In this document: piece after piece, positions 52,720 through 64,000 of the stretch
How positions within the stretch are numbered: the stretch's first letter is position 1
Layout: each line of letters begins with the position of its first letter
DNA from: Longibacter salinarum
GTDB taxonomy: Bacteria > Bacteroidota > Rhodothermia > Rhodothermales > Salinibacteraceae
Assembly: GCF_002554795.1 (NCBI RefSeq)
Contig: NZ_PDEQ01000006.1
Location: 310,001-374,000 of the forward strand
Direction: 5' to 3'
DNA length: 64,000 nucleotides
Position numbers and translations under genes: made by a program
Notes under the pieces: generated by a model
Seen by the model: only the letters and a program-made list of their open reading frames with translations
Databases searched by the model: none
What the model was told of the DNA's origin: nothing

Positions 52720-53664
52720 ATGGAGCAGTCTAAAGACCGTTCGGTACCAGAGGATCAGCGCATGCATCGGCCGTCATCTATTGCGCGCGGAAAGGTCGGT
52801 GGAACGGGGCAAATCATCAATTTTGTGCAATGGGCCGAGCGCGTTCTCTCTTCCACGGCTCATGTTGCCGTTCTCGACCTCATCATTGGCACAGCTTCGT
52901 TCGGGGCGGCACTGTATCTGCATGGTCTGGTCGCTCTTCCGTCTGGAGTATGGGCCATTCCCTTGGTGGCCTGGGCGCCGGTCGTGGCATCAGGGAAAAC
53001 GGGAATATTTCGACTGATGGGTCTGCATCATACCCTCTGGCGATACGCTGGCACACCAGACATCACGCGTCTCTTGGGGGCTGTTGTGCTTGGTGCCGCT
53101 GCCGCTGGAGGTTGGCTGTCAATGGTCGTCGTGGCTGGTTATCCCACGGTCTCGGTCGACGCGATCTTGCTCGTCGTTCTCACGGACGCCATTATTATCG
53201 CCGGGGCGATGGTGGTAACGCGCGTATGCGTTCGTGCAGGCTACCGGGTCGTATCAACGCATACGGACACGTCAGAGGCTGTCTCGGTGCTTATCGTCGG
53301 CCTGGGCGCGGAGAGTGAGTTTGCACTGCGCGCGCTGCGTCAGAAGGCGAAGTCCGGGCGTGTCGTCCGAGGCTTTATCGGTGAAGCGGAGGATCATGGC
53401 TATCTAATGCAGGGCTTGCCCGTGATTGGAGGCGAAGAAAACGTTCGGGAGGCCGTTGTCGATCTATCTATCGACGAAATCATCGTCCCGTCTACGGCTT
53501 CCCGCGATCGATCGGAATCGGTACAGCAGGTGGTTTCTAAGCCGGAAGCTATGGACGTATCGGTCGTCCGGTTTGCCGTCGATGTGTCCTCGGCTTCCGG
53601 TGTGACGGACAATCAGGAGGCCCAGACGATAACGCGGGAAGCGACCGCGAAGCCACCGGTCTGA
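52720..53664 (+). CDS. CapD-like polysaccharide protein lacking the SDR domain
   Basis: A 314-residue membrane protein. Four transmembrane helices (residues about 45-165: LDLIIGTASFGAALYLHGLV, and TRLLGAVVLGAAAAGGWLSM and others) precede a cytosolic nucleotide-binding-like domain (VLIVGLGAESEFALRALRQK) like the CoA-binding-3 module found in WbpM/CapD-type sugar-nucleotide dehydratases and in sugar-transferase N-termini. The catalytic domain that follows in full-length relatives (SDR with Y-x-x-x-K, or bacterial sugar transferase) is missing, and the protein ends in a short Thr-rich tail. It may act as a regulatory or assembly subunit. The Wzz/BY-kinase gene follows 56 bases later. Confidence 0.72.
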   Translation: MEQSKDRSVPEDQRMHRPSSIARGKVGGTGQIINFVQWAERVLSSTAHVAVLDLIIGTASFGAALYLHGLVALPSGVWAIPLVAWAPVVASGKTGIFRLMGLHHTLWRYAGTPDITRLLGAVVLGAAAAGGWLSMVVVAGYPTVSVDAILLVVLTDAIIIAGAMVVTRVCVRAGYRVVSTHTDTSEAVSVLIVGLGAESEFALRALRQKAKSGRVVRGFIGEAEDHGYLMQGLPVIGGEENVREAVVDLSIDEIIVPSTASRDRSESVQQVVSKPEAMDVSVVRFAVDVSSASGVTDNQEAQTITREATAKPPV

Positions 53665-53720
53665 CGTCTGACGGTGCGTTCCTCCCCGTCCTCGCGTACC
53701 TCACGTAGCGCTCGGTCTTT

Positions 53721-56246
53721 ATGAAACCCTACGGTATGCCCCCGAACAACACCTCTGGTGCCGAACGATCGGATTCACTATACCCGATGCAGTCTTCCAC
53801 CAAACCTCGTCAGGCTTCCGACCAGATCTTCCGCTTCGTGCGCCTCGCCTGGCGCGGGAAGTGGGTCATTCTGGGACTCACCATGCTGGTCGCTGTGTCT
53901 ACCTACGCCTACTATGGCCGTCTTGACAAGGTATACCGTTCCAGTGCCGTCTTTCTGCTTCGGCAGGAGAACGCAAAAACGTTATCGGAAGAGATCAATC
54001 TGATGGCCGAAGATGGGCAAGACGTGGAGCGCGAGATTTACTATCTGAACGAGTCGGACGTCTTCCTGCGTCATGTGGCGGAACGGATCCGCGATCAGGC
54101 AGACGACCCTGACTCGAGTCTCGTGCTATCGGGATGGTCGACATCGGGCGGGACGTCACTGGCGGAGCTTGCGAGCCGACTACGTAGCCGAATTCGCGTT
54201 ACTCAGGGAAGCCGCGACGTGGAGTCGATCCGGGTGGTGGCCACGGGCGGGAGTCCAGACGAGGCGGTGGTGTTGGCGAATACCCTCGTAGAAACGTATT
54301 TCGATCATCTTCAGCGAACACAGAGTGCCCGTGCTCGGGCGACCCGGCAATTCCTGGAGCAGCAGCGGGGCGAACTTGAACGCGAGCTTCAACTCGTAGA
54401 AGACTCGCTGAGTGAACACATCCGCGAGAGAGGCCCTGAGAAGTTGGCGACGGAGACGGAGGAAAGTTCGGCGTTTATGGGCAACATGAGTCGGATTTCC
54501 GAGGAGATCTCAAGCCTTGAAGAACAGCGTGGGGAGCTTGAGCTCAAGATTAACATGGAGCAAGCGCTTCTCGACTCTGCACGGTCTCGGTACAAACGCC
54601 TACGACCCGATGTGGCGGACCGAGCGGCGTCGACAACCTCTTCGGAGTTGGAGCAAACGCAGGAGGCGATCCTCAATCTTCGTAACCGGCTAGAGATGGT
54701 TGAGGAGAACAATGATGCGCAGAGTGCGACCGTACAAAAGCATCTTCGCGAAGGCCGGACGCGGCTCGCGAATCTTGAGGCCAAGGCCAAACGCCTGGCT
54801 GACCGGTACGTACGGGAATCCCTCGAGACGGATGTCGTTGAGTCATCGGGAGAGGGCGGCGAGCTGACGGGTATGGTGGATCTGCAGCGCCAGATCATGA
54901 CCCGTGAAACGCGTCTTTCTCAACTCCGTGCCCGCACGTCGAAGTTGGAGGGGAAGATCGCTGAGCGAAAGCGTACGCTGAGCAGTCTCGGGCCGGATCG
55001 AACGCTTACCCGTCTCGAGCGCCGCAAGGAGACGCTGCAAGAGCTCTTCCTCACGCTGTCAAAAAGCCTCCAGAAAGCGCAGGTTGCGGAGAATTCGAGT
55101 CCCGAGCAGGCTCAGGTCATTCGGTGGGCATCGCCCGTTCTCCAGCCGATCCGTCCTGACGTATCACGAAACGTCGGCCTTGCGCTCTGTCTTGGCCTGA
55201 TTCTCTCGTTCGGCCTCGTTCTCGTTTACGACAAGATTGATGACGTGATCGAGCGTCCTGAGGATGTCGAGCGGTCGGATGAGAAACTCTTTGGCACCGT
55301 TCCAGAATGGGATTCTGATTTCATCATTCAGGGTGTGGCCGAAGTTGAGGATGCGCCGTCATTGAATGGGGCTCGTTCGAACGGTCGACACAAGAAGAGA
55401 CCGGGGATTGTATCGCCCTATTGCGTGGCCTCGGAAGCGTACCGTCACGTCGCGACCAACATCCGCCTGGGGCTTCCGTCATCGGTGCAGACGATCGTCG
55501 TCACGAGCCCAGGGCCCGGCGACGGGAAGACGACGATGACAGCGAATCTCGGTCCGGCGTTCAGCGAAGCCGGTTGCCGAACGCTGTTGATTGATCTCGA
55601 CCTACGAAAGCCCTCTCTACATCGGGCCTTCGGCGAAAACGTCAAGCCCGGGGTGACGGATTTTCTGGGACGTGGACGAGAATTGGAGATCACGGATGTG
55701 ACCGGTCTACGGGACCCCGGGACGTGGAATGAGATGTCGGAGGAGGGCCCGTCCGTAGATGATTTCTCCGCAGGGGATGGGGCCTCTACCGGCGATGCCT
55801 ACCCCGGTCGACTTGGTCTCGTAACTGCGGGCAATACGGTTCCACAGCCGGGTCTCCTCCTTCACGAACAGCGTATCCGCAAGCTTGTCGATCGGGTCGA
55901 GAACGATTGGGATTTGGTCATCATTGACACGCCACCCGCGCGTCTCTTTGATGACGCCCACCGCATTTCCAATTCGGCTGATGTCGTCCTACTGGTTGCT
56001 TCGGCAGACCAAACGTCAGCGCGGGCATTTTCCGATGTGAAGGATCGGTTCCACACGCTTGGTTCCGACGTGGTTGTCGGCGTACTGAACCGGTATTCTG
56101 CATCTGCGAGCCCCTTCTATGGGTATGGGCAAACGTATGCCTACGGCGGACAGTCGGCTGCGTACAGCGCGTACGGACGCGGCCCGGAGACTCCGCCCGT
56201 GACAGCACGACTGCGGCGCCGCCTTCGCACCCTCATCAAAGGTTGA
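53721..56246 (+). CDS. Wzz-type polysaccharide co-polymerase with BY-kinase domain
   Basis: An 841-residue inner-membrane tyrosine autokinase. The Wzz part has a helix near residue 55 (WVILGLTMLVAVSTYAYYG), a long periplasmic coiled coil and a second helix near 485 (VGLALCLGLILSFGLVLVY). The cytosolic kinase has Walker A SPGPGDGKTTM near 595-606, Walker A' LLIDLDLRKPSLH and Walker B LVIIDTPPARLF. A C-terminal Tyr cluster (FYGYGQTYAYGG) is the usual autophosphorylation target. An insert of about 30 acidic residues lies between A' and B. It controls chain length and export of an exopolysaccharide; the glycosyltransferases and Wza are not in this window. Confidence 0.9.
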   Translation: MKPYGMPPNNTSGAERSDSLYPMQSSTKPRQASDQIFRFVRLAWRGKWVILGLTMLVAVSTYAYYGRLDKVYRSSAVFLLRQENAKTLSEEINLMAEDGQDVEREIYYLNESDVFLRHVAERIRDQADDPDSSLVLSGWSTSGGTSLAELASRLRSRIRVTQGSRDVESIRVVATGGSPDEAVVLANTLVETYFDHLQRTQSARARATRQFLEQQRGELERELQLVEDSLSEHIRERGPEKLATETEESSAFMGNMSRISEEISSLEEQRGELELKINMEQALLDSARSRYKRLRPDVADRAASTTSSELEQTQEAILNLRNRLEMVEENNDAQSATVQKHLREGRTRLANLEAKAKRLADRYVRESLETDVVESSGEGGELTGMVDLQRQIMTRETRLSQLRARTSKLEGKIAERKRTLSSLGPDRTLTRLERRKETLQELFLTLSKSLQKAQVAENSSPEQAQVIRWASPVLQPIRPDVSRNVGLALCLGLILSFGLVLVYDKIDDVIERPEDVERSDEKLFGTVPEWDSDFIIQGVAEVEDAPSLNGARSNGRHKKRPGIVSPYCVASEAYRHVATNIRLGLPSSVQTIVVTSPGPGDGKTTMTANLGPAFSEAGCRTLLIDLDLRKPSLHRAFGENVKPGVTDFLGRGRELEITDVTGLRDPGTWNEMSEEGPSVDDFSAGDGASTGDAYPGRLGLVTAGNTVPQPGLLLHEQRIRKLVDRVENDWDLVIIDTPPARLFDDAHRISNSADVVLLVASADQTSARAFSDVKDRFHTLGSDVVVGVLNRYSASASPFYGYGQTYAYGGQSAAYSAYGRGPETPPVTARLRRRLRTLIKG

Positions 56247-61739: not shown

Positions 61740-62092
61740 TTATGGATTACGCACTAATAAGTATTGAGTCAAAGCAGTCGTAAGCATTGAAGCTGACGCA
61801 TGAGTATCGGCTCAAAGATTCGGTTTCTCGTGGCAATGGTGTGACCGTGAGCGTGGTATCGGAGTGGGGCGAGTCCGTTTTCGTTCTACTTCGCCTGCCA
61901 ATTCACTGCAAGCAAGATCATTGTTAGCAACTCCCTTGCAGGTCCAAGAGCTTTCTGCCACTGCTTCGCGATCAAATGGTGTCTATTCTAGCACGTGTTA
62001 ACCTCTTTTTGTCGGCCGACAGTCGTCGGCGTCAGAGGAGGAGTCGACTTCGGCCCGGGCGACGGTCTCGACGTTGTATCCGCATAGTTGCG

Positions 62093-62482
62093 ATGACGGC
62101 AATTCTTCTGTCGCTTCTAATCGTCGGACCGGGTGCGAGAGCGCAGTCGCCAACAGGAGGGCTCAACTCTTCAGGGTCATCGTGGGATGCGACTCCGCGG
62201 TACGGTTCGTCTACTGAGAGGACCGGTCGAGATCCCGTCAGCCTTCCGTCATGGGCCCGGTCATCTCCACGATCACCGTCGGGGCCGGCCACTGCTAGAG
62301 ACAGAGGAGACAACCGTCCGGCAGATGGGCCGGGACTTCCAGATGGTCCTGAGTCGGTTCCGATTTCGGGTACGGGCCTCGCGGTTCTCGCTGTGGCCGG
62401 GGCTTCCCTGGCGTTCCGGCGCCTCCGGAATCATCCGAGTGCGACATCCGAGGACGGTCCCGCGTCTAGGTCTCTAGATTGA
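62093..62482 (+). CDS. Short exported protein with C-terminal sorting-type tail
   Basis: A 129-residue protein. ATG 62093 gives a signal peptide (MTAILLSLLIVGPGARAQS). The middle is Ser/Pro/Gly/Arg-rich and looks disordered. The C-terminus reads VPISGTGLAVLAVAGASLAF followed by RRLRNH, i.e. a short Pro-Ile motif, one hydrophobic span and a basic cluster. This resembles PEP-CTERM or PID-CTERM sorting signals, the latter known from Bacteroidota and processed by exosortase-type enzymes, although Ser stands where PID-CTERM has Asp. No sortase gene is in the window. It lies 109 bases before the LamG-type surface protein, with the same orientation. Confidence 0.55.
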   Translation: MTAILLSLLIVGPGARAQSPTGGLNSSGSSWDATPRYGSSTERTGRDPVSLPSWARSSPRSPSGPATARDRGDNRPADGPGLPDGPESVPISGTGLAVLAVAGASLAFRRLRNHPSATSEDGPASRSLD

Positions 62483-62591
62483 GGCGTTCTCGGATTCTAT
62501 CGCTGCGGCGCACGTCCGCCCAGACTGTAACGCATCCGGTCGCAGCCGGCCGGGCATCAAATCCTGCGACTAGAAATCATTAGTGATCGCT

Positions 62592-64000
62592 ATGAGCCAA
62601 CGATACATACTCTTTCTTTTATCTTTCGGCCTCGTCCTGTTCTCGTTCGGCGTAGGGAACGTCGTGGCCCAGGACGGGCCTGGAGGCGTCGGGAATGACG
62701 ATGGATCGGCCGGGCAGCCCATCAACAGTCTGTGGCTGGAGGCCGATCGGGACGCGTTCACAAACGGCGGGTGCTCGACGGTCGCTTCGGCAGGCGACGA
62801 GGTGCGGTGCTGGGCGAGCCAGAGCGACTACACCGAGGGCGGAGGCCAGACCACGGCGGATGTCCCAGGTGGTCTTGGTGCACCTACGCTGGACGCGACC
62901 GTGTCGGGATTCAACAACCGTCCCGGCCTTCGATTCGATCGAAGCGATGATGATGCTTTACGTCTGGAAAATCTAGCTCCATTCTCAAGTGGACAATTTG
63001 ATAGTCAGCAGTTCTATCTCGTTTTTCGGACCGGGAATGACGTGATGAGTCGGCAGGTCCTGTACGATCAGGGTTCCACCAGTAGTGGTTTAAATTTATA
63101 CATCGAAGGAGGAGAGTTGATCGCGGGCGCTTGGGGAGATTCGGGATCTCGGGCGCTACAAGCGACATACGGCGTGACGACCAATTCAGTCTACGTGGTC
63201 TCTGTTGAATTCTCGCGTATTGTCCGTTTCTCAGGTCTCTTTACAGAACTTCAGCTTTATGTCAACCGGACTGCGAGTGCCAGGGACCAAGATGAGGTGA
63301 GAGACCTAGGGAGTATTGCCGCGGGAAACAACGAGGTTGGCCTCGGTAATGTCGCAGGCGGGACTCAATTTGCTGGATCGAACTACACCGGGCCCGGAGG
63401 AAATGGATTTGAGGGATGGATCGGCGATTTTGCTCATTTCCAAAATGATCTCTCGCTCTTTCGTCAAAATGCTCTCTCGCTCATTCGTCACCGAATCGTG
63501 ATGACGTCGTTAGCGGCTAAGTACGGGCTGTCTCTCGACGACGTTCAACTCTACGACTTCTCAGACTACAGCACTCGTGTCGCTGGCGTCGGTCGAGAGC
63601 CAGGCAGGTTCTTTGGCATTCCAGTAACGCACGAATTGGCCGGCAGCGAAGGTTTAACCCTCGACGCGACGACAAATGCGACGGGAGCTCTCTTCGTCGG
63701 CCATAATGGTGGTGCGCCCTCCATCATCTCAGAGACGGATGTCCCCAGTGTGGAAGGTCGGCTGGAGCGTGTTTGGCGCCTCCAGGATGCTTCGGCTCGA
63801 CCGCAGACAGATCTCGTCTTCGATGTCTCGGGTATCGCTCTCGACAGCGATCAGGTGTTCCGTCTCTTACAGGAAACGGATGCGGGGGACGGGACCTTCC
63901 AGAGCGGCACGTCGAGGCTGGTCGGAGGGGCTTACGACCCGGTCGAGGAAACCTATACGATCGATGCAGCACAAGTTAATGGTAGCATTCCGGATGACTC
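62592..64000 (+). CDS. LamG/concanavalin-like surface protein, 3' end outside window
   Basis: ATG 62592 opens a frame of 469 codons that runs to the window edge without a stop. A signal peptide (YILFLLSFGLVLFSFGVGNV ending in VAQ) is followed by SLWLEADRDAFTNGG and RPGLRFDRSDDDALRL, the pattern of LamG-type (concanavalin A-like) domains in Bacteroidota surface proteins, where a 'W-L-x-A-D' opening precedes a sugar-binding-like jelly roll. A second part starts near GVGREPGRFFGIPVTHELAG and continues into a repeat-like beta-rich region (SEGLTLDATTNATGALFVGH). Such proteins are often very large and carry a C-terminal sorting tag, which would lie outside. Adhesion or matrix binding is inferred. 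Confidence 0.75.
   Translation, partial: MSQRYILFLLSFGLVLFSFGVGNVVAQDGPGGVGNDDGSAGQPINSLWLEADRDAFTNGGCSTVASAGDEVRCWASQSDYTEGGGQTTADVPGGLGAPTLDATVSGFNNRPGLRFDRSDDDALRLENLAPFSSGQFDSQQFYLVFRTGNDVMSRQVLYDQGSTSSGLNLYIEGGELIAGAWGDSGSRALQATYGVTTNSVYVVSVEFSRIVRFSGLFTELQLYVNRTASARDQDEVRDLGSIAAGNNEVGLGNVAGGTQFAGSNYTGPGGNGFEGWIGDFAHFQNDLSLFRQNALSLIRHRIVMTSLAAKYGLSLDDVQLYDFSDYSTRVAGVGREPGRFFGIPVTHELAGSEGLTLDATTNATGALFVGHNGGAPSIISETDVPSVEGRLERVWRLQDASARPQTDLVFDVSGIALDSDQVFRLLQETDAGDGTFQSGTSRLVGGAYDPVEETYTIDAAQVNGSIPDD

Follow-up and report, generated by a model that had tools for sequence, protein, structure and literature searches.

A recurring PID-CTERM and type IX cargo gene pair in Longibacter salinarum and its relatives suggests cooperation of two protein-sorting systems at the cell surface

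Described sorting systems and the Longibacter locus

Tails resembling the one described here belong to the PEP-CTERM/EpsH system, for which the accessible part of Haft 2006 (PMC1569441) proposes that exosortases cut the tails at the inner membrane, the proteins then joining the extracellular polysaccharide. Set against that part of the account, the likeness lies in the probable signal peptide, motif, hydrophobic span and basic cluster of the substrate, in the Cys/NxxR/His of the enzyme and in a tie to likely polysaccharide genes; unlike there, the substrates here have no PEP motif, and many of them are tiny and encoded singly beside a cargo of the type IX secretion system (T9SS). In Aquincola, according to the accessible text of PMC9850573, overexpression of a PEP-CTERM protein decreased soluble exopolysaccharide and increased the bound form. 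In Flavobacterium johnsoniae, deletion of xrtF, porU, porV or sprA gave far less biofilm and less colonisation, a much reduced biofilm and a reduced surface colonisation thus being shared by exosortase and T9SS mutants; the accessible part of that paper (PMC10936215) does not describe the gene pairing. The available text of a T9SS paper (PMC7468200) speculated that the anchors of both systems are chemically linked through related sugar genes.

Exosortase X (XrtX, NF046081) and PID-CTERM (NF046080) have already been named by NCBI, and the T9SS is likewise known. The genome studied here resembles the XrtX/PID-CTERM system in its over-cut-off XrtX, its tail plan and its three over-cut-off paralogues, and departs from it in that the tail under study reads PISGTG, not PIDGG, and lies below the curated cut-off. 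In the same way, the large partner agrees with T9SS type A cargos (TIGR04183/PF18962) in a tail over both cut-offs and in the presence of PorV, and differs from them in carrying a further domain ahead of the tail, which no Pfam or NCBIfam family matches, and in its exosortase-type neighbour gene. What is new is the pairing of PID and T9SS-cargo genes across the class, together with the shared pre-tail domain. The pairing was not found in the titles and abstract openings of the open literature, a scope outside which most subscription papers and the NCBI family notes lie.

The DNA analysed is a stretch of 64,000 nt from Longibacter salinarum (GCF_002554795.1, NZ_PDEQ01000006.1, positions 310,001-374,000), referred to as a whole as the window. 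Its relevant features are collected in Table 1. For both genes an alternative start is possible, at an upstream in-frame ATG at 61976 for the small protein and at a GTG at 62583 for the large one.

Table 1. Features of the gene pair in window coordinates
Feature	Position	Strand	Remarks
Small PID-CTERM-like protein	62093..62482	+	129 aa; ORF open from ATG 62093
Probable signal peptide	62093..62143	+	Read from sequence; mature start would be Gln (ARA/Q)
LPSWA motif	62243..62257	+	Common to PID proteins of the window's family
Sorting-signal-like tail VPISGTGLAVLAVAGASLAFRRLRN	62357..62431	+	PISGTG motif, hydrophobic span, RRLR cluster
T9SS cargo, first 469 aa of 1670	62592..64000 (whole gene C6:372592-377604)	+	TIGR04183, PF18962, pre-tail domain

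The small protein, its tail and the exosortase

A sequence-only reading had described the small protein as ending in a Pro-Ile motif, a hydrophobic span and a basic cluster. All three are present near the C-terminus, as VPISGTG, LAVLAVAGASLAF and RRLR, and 16 further residues follow VPISGTGLAVLAVAGASLAFRRLRN. By eye, the N-terminus is hydrophobic and ends in ARA ahead of Gln; the combination [AGSC]Q precedes the tail motif in 110 of 114 related ORFs. The small protein's central part is rich in Pro, Ser and Arg. Within the window's family 23 PID proteins were examined, and 20 of them, this one included, carry [LVI]PxWA in the mature part.

The same reading had remarked on Ser in place of Asp. 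This departure is real: the motif Pro-Ile-Ser-Gly has neither the Asp of P-I-D nor a Pro-Glu-Pro, and the protein scores 13.1 bits with NF046080 (PID_CTERM), where the curated cut-off is 26. It also falls within natural variation, with Asp missing from 18 of the 114 collected tails (PIGSG in nine, APLGG in five, PIGGG in two, LINGG and PISGT in one each). Our own tail model, seeded with Asp-bearing tails and without the window tail, found the window ORF at E 2.6e-4.

A same-genus orthologue (genome G003, locus L183, 9778-10563) sits after the same RF3 gene and has an identical PISGTG, the pattern VPISGTGLA.LA.AGASLA.RRLR being kept; the contig stops just past this gene, leaving any cargo out of sight. 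Over the 24 aligned codons of the tail, pN is 0.063 and pS 0.579, compared with a pN of 0.494 and a pS of 0.789 in the middle of the protein. Therefore, the tail is the part that purifying selection keeps. A chance match of the tail was ruled out by the orthologue, the LPxWA motif, the pairing statistics given below and the match to our own model. On its sequence, the window protein is a homologous variant lying below the curated PID_CTERM cut-off.

The window and L183 also differ further upstream. At 52720-56246 the window has an ORF matching only the N-terminal half of polysaccharide glycosylphosphotransferases, together with a Wzc-like kinase, flanked by a sigma factor on one side and an HD hydrolase on the other; the two genes are absent from L183, where the flanking genes adjoin.

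Signal peptidase cutting before Gln is a habit of this phylum. If the related ORFs are cut there, the stretch from signal peptide to motif would be exactly 11 residues in 54 of the 114 and 9-16 residues in 86, on a measure that takes the first [AGSC]Q as the cut and is misplaced in some ORFs with long N-terminal extensions. The consensus of the short predicted mature product is QPGLPxxPxQA; in the window's order and one other family the predicted product is longer, often with a Trp motif.

The reading had further proposed a search of the genome for more such tails and for an exosortase gene. Three other proteins score above the PID_CTERM cut-off (42.7, 35.8 and 34.4 bits), and the single exosortase-family match (PF09721), at C7:169236-169715, belongs to subfamily XrtX with 198.4 bits against a cut-off of 170; the lack of both, named there as telling against the idea, is thus not what the genome shows. 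Cys108, Arg149 (of NxxR) and His168 are invariant in 12 of 12 aligned XrtX sequences. Upstream of XrtX lie genes that by eye resemble polysaccharide genes (one weak EpsE match); downstream, a small membrane protein is encoded along with two T9SS cargos.

The gene after XrtX recurs elsewhere. A membrane protein of 155-175 aa with a Pro-x-Arg segment after its first span follows XrtX in L019 (9755-10270), L159, L191, L193, L195 and L196 and looks like a frequent exosortase partner; an NCBIfam search with the one from the window's genome gave no match. In three of these loci, L159 (5530-6831), L191 (5706-6992) and L196 (5449-6738), an ORF of ~430 aa overlaps the partner gene; judged by eye on its C-terminus, this ORF resembles a glycerate kinase.

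We then compared the occurrence of PID tails and exosortases across 296 sampled Bacteroidota genomes. An over-cut-off PID tail was present in 48, and all 48 had an exosortase-family match, 43 by PF09721 (E ≤0.001) and five by TIGR04128, two of these five being below that model's cut-off. Every one of the 35 genomes in the window's class that bear a PID tail belongs to the 43, and for the PF09721 table alone the co-occurrence has a Fisher p of 5e-21. The converse fails, since 47 of 90 PF09721 genomes have no over-cut-off PID tail. Among the 14 genomes of the window's family that are at least 90% complete, seven have both PID tail and XrtX, five have neither, one has PID only (G021, 94% complete, with tails over the cut-off) and one has XrtX only (G015), giving p 0.026. 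XrtX searches also found no match in the genus-mate G003 (83% complete), though over-cut-off PID tails are present, or in the incomplete G018 and G019, despite over-cut-off PID tails.

Pairing with type IX cargos and a shared pre-tail domain

The sequence-only reading had placed a LamG-type gene 109 bases on, running off the edge. The spacing and the run-off are as described, the cargo ATG at 62592 being 109 bases past the small-gene stop and the ORF ending 3604 bases past the window edge. The LamG label is weakly supported: Laminin_G_3 (PF13385) gives 17.2 bits against a cut-off of 27.6, in the second module only, a Pfam search of residues 1-469 had no match, and structure prediction for the first module gave a pLDDT of only 34.9 and no usable fold. 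The protein consists of two GPGG[VI]G modules and, beyond the window, the pre-tail domain followed by a C-terminal T9SS type A tail, which had been beyond the reader's view and is over both cut-offs (TIGR04183, 34.3 bits against 23; PF18962, 32.7 bits against 27). The genome has a PorV (NF033710, 285.2 bits, cut-off 250) and a PorU-like ORF of 180 bits, under the cut-off of 420.

That such pairs may define a surface system in the lineage was also part of the reading. In the class, a same-strand ORF with a T9SS tail lies within 400 bp of 105 of the 114 PID ORFs (35 genomes), compared with 18 of 246 control genes of these loci, all 3 kb or more away from any PID (Fisher p 5e-60). The cargo is upstream only in 87 pairs, downstream only, as in the window, in nine and on both sides in nine. 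These counts are by gene copy, and since a genome's related copies are not independent of each other, the per-genome figures are also given: at least one pair in 34 of 35 genomes, and all PIDs found paired in 27 of 35. In the window's own genome the idea holds less well, only two of the four PID genes being beside a cargo. Taken together, the observation made from the sequence is confirmed and its interpretation supported.

The loci counted are the neighbourhoods of the class's over-cut-off PID hits, to which those of all four PID genes in the window's genome were added. PID hits lying at the very end of a contig, two in G134 and that on C23 of G098, were left out, and one over-cut-off hit (G048:C36, L147) is not in the 114, probably because its start-codon ORF is below the required 45 aa. 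The PID-tail and T9SS-tail models were built from the counted loci, with T9SS seeds from the window's genome; as an independent check on the T9SS-tail calls, library scans of 44 paired cargos (out of 108) found a T9SS tail in every one, in Pfam as well as in NCBIfam (E ≤0.001). A GPGGVG-like motif was considered as a hallmark of paired cargos and rejected, just 3 of 108 carrying one.

Of the three over-cut-off PID genes in the window's genome, one is beside PorV, one precedes a 1893-aa T9SS cargo and one is beside neither. A PID-CTERM gene directly follows porV in six genomes of the family (L017, 7964-9911; L182, 6596-8398; L215, L221, L223 and L228), PorV being identified by profile in the window's genome and by its end motif in the other five.

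For the 19 PID ORFs from outside the class, our models place a cargo next to 11 (nine by tail, two by pre-tail domain); one more was seen by eye, and three of the remainder adjoin an exosortase-family gene. The 19 do not include L177 (G129) and L178 (G249), whose NF046080 hit our own tail model missed. From the phylum survey as a whole, the only below-cut-off hits taken up were G138:C1:1629686 and G177:C27. Around exosortases themselves, the best 80 of 354 relatives gave loci with 17 PID ORFs, three beside a T9SS cargo and 14 not. The pairing therefore characterises the PID copies that are dispersed, and not the one adjacent to the exosortase.

Two further arrangements were seen. Many Bacteroidia exosortase loci (L283, L287-L311) have a single PID gene immediately upstream of the exosortase gene, and in most cases no T9SS cargo adjoins it. 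In L180 (5115-8036; G191:C1:2167132) a PID tail (PIDGE) stands at the end of a 973-aa ORF, which may be a fusion of a cargo and the PID protein next to it.

The paired cargos have in common ~380 residues just ahead of the T9SS tail, with the pattern GWRxLSxP ... GNPF ... WQGFFV ... DAxKLxPL ... PxxWxxxLxD ... RFxI. The 44 cargos from which a model of this pre-tail domain was made include none of the window's genome; 42 belong to other orders, and the remaining two to G254, a genome of the window's order. It matched 102 of the 108 paired cargos, including that of the window (8.4e-40), and also 12 of 29 unpaired T9SS ORFs in the same loci; the cargo after XrtX and the small membrane protein bears the domain as well (6e-66). 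When 34 members were searched against Pfam and NCBIfam at E ≤0.01, no family was matched.

Searches of 18 whole genomes (E ≤1e-10) gave 5-18 domain matches in the six PID-bearing genomes and 0-3 in the twelve without an over-cut-off PID. G000, with 58 T9SS tails, has five matches, of which two belong to PID-paired cargos and a third stands downstream of XrtX. G138 has 16 matches and 91 T9SS tails, and each of its seven PIDs (six over the cut-off, one under it) has a match no more than 1.5 kb away; for a draw from the 91 tails, the hypergeometric p is 1.4e-6. For two of the seven, the main domain match is in a long ORF upstream of a short T9SS-tail ORF.

The predicted fold of the domain is mostly beta, in a model of moderate quality (pLDDT 77, pTM 0.82). 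A sequence search for a solved relative gave only E 0.065 or worse, Foldseek with the model returned nothing at E ≤0.001, and a second structure comparison had no Z ≥5, the best being 4.1 over 95 residues. The fold, as modelled, may nevertheless be one already known.

Possible roles of the two products

What the data show is a sorting-signal-like tail, an exosortase with its Cys/Arg/His, a T9SS tail on the neighbour, the recurrence of the gene pair and a pre-tail domain common to the cargos. From these we infer cleavage, an acceptor, and partnership or contact at the surface, along the following lines. The signal peptide would take the small protein across the inner membrane, where the C-terminal helix would hold it. 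XrtX would then cut it at PISG and hand the new C-terminus to a surface glycan or glycolipid, while the large neighbour would leave through the type IX system and be attached by way of its type A tail. The small product would probably be a peptide handle on a polysaccharide, and the large protein an adhesin.

The data suggest that two distinct systems of protein sorting work together at the surface of the cell. We propose that the pair is a two-gene surface unit feeding two sorting routes, its products being made together because both build the same surface layer; the chances for and against this seem to us about equal. The pre-tail domain is the natural candidate for contact with the small product. 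A more specific form of the proposal, in which the exosortase makes a short, blocked surface-glycan peptide and the pre-tail domain of the paired cargo docks on that peptide, is put forward tentatively and is rather unlikely as it stands.

Co-expression might be all that the pairing reflects, each product following its own route at the same time of need, with neither contact nor a shared anchor. Mature PID peptides are often near-identical beside very different cargos, and are therefore not cargo-specific, and some PID genes adjoin an exosortase or PorV and not a cargo, both as such co-expression would have it. However, the pairing goes with one specific pre-tail domain (seven of seven PIDs in G138, which has 16 matches beside 91 T9SS tails), which mere co-expression does not predict and which counts against this explanation; we consider it somewhat unlikely.

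It is improbable that the small protein remains uncut and serves as a membrane-held escort or adaptor, guiding the cargo on its way between inner membrane and T9SS translocon. The PID genes beside PorV in six genomes of the family would suit such a role, as would the shortest PID proteins, which amount to roughly two hydrophobic spans joined by 11 residues; but PID tails track exosortases in 48 of 48 genomes, and G204 and G029, with 104 and 52 T9SS tails, have neither PID tail nor exosortase. Finally, the window protein is very unlikely to be a divergent paralogue whose PISG tail is lost to XrtX and acts as a plain membrane anchor: its low NF046080 score, its Asp-to-Ser change with one extra residue and the survival of the tail in G003, where XrtX was not found, speak for this, but the G003 tail is conserved far better than the protein middle and other exosortase-bearing genomes use PIGSG, PLGG and PIGGG among the tails without Asp.

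The proposal of a two-gene surface unit bears on the fate of exosortase substrates after export. If many small substrates each come with a domain-bearing T9SS adhesin, these substrates have a defined candidate partner. If the docking of the pre-tail domain on the peptide is true, the products of the exosortase would be the attachment points of type IX adhesins.
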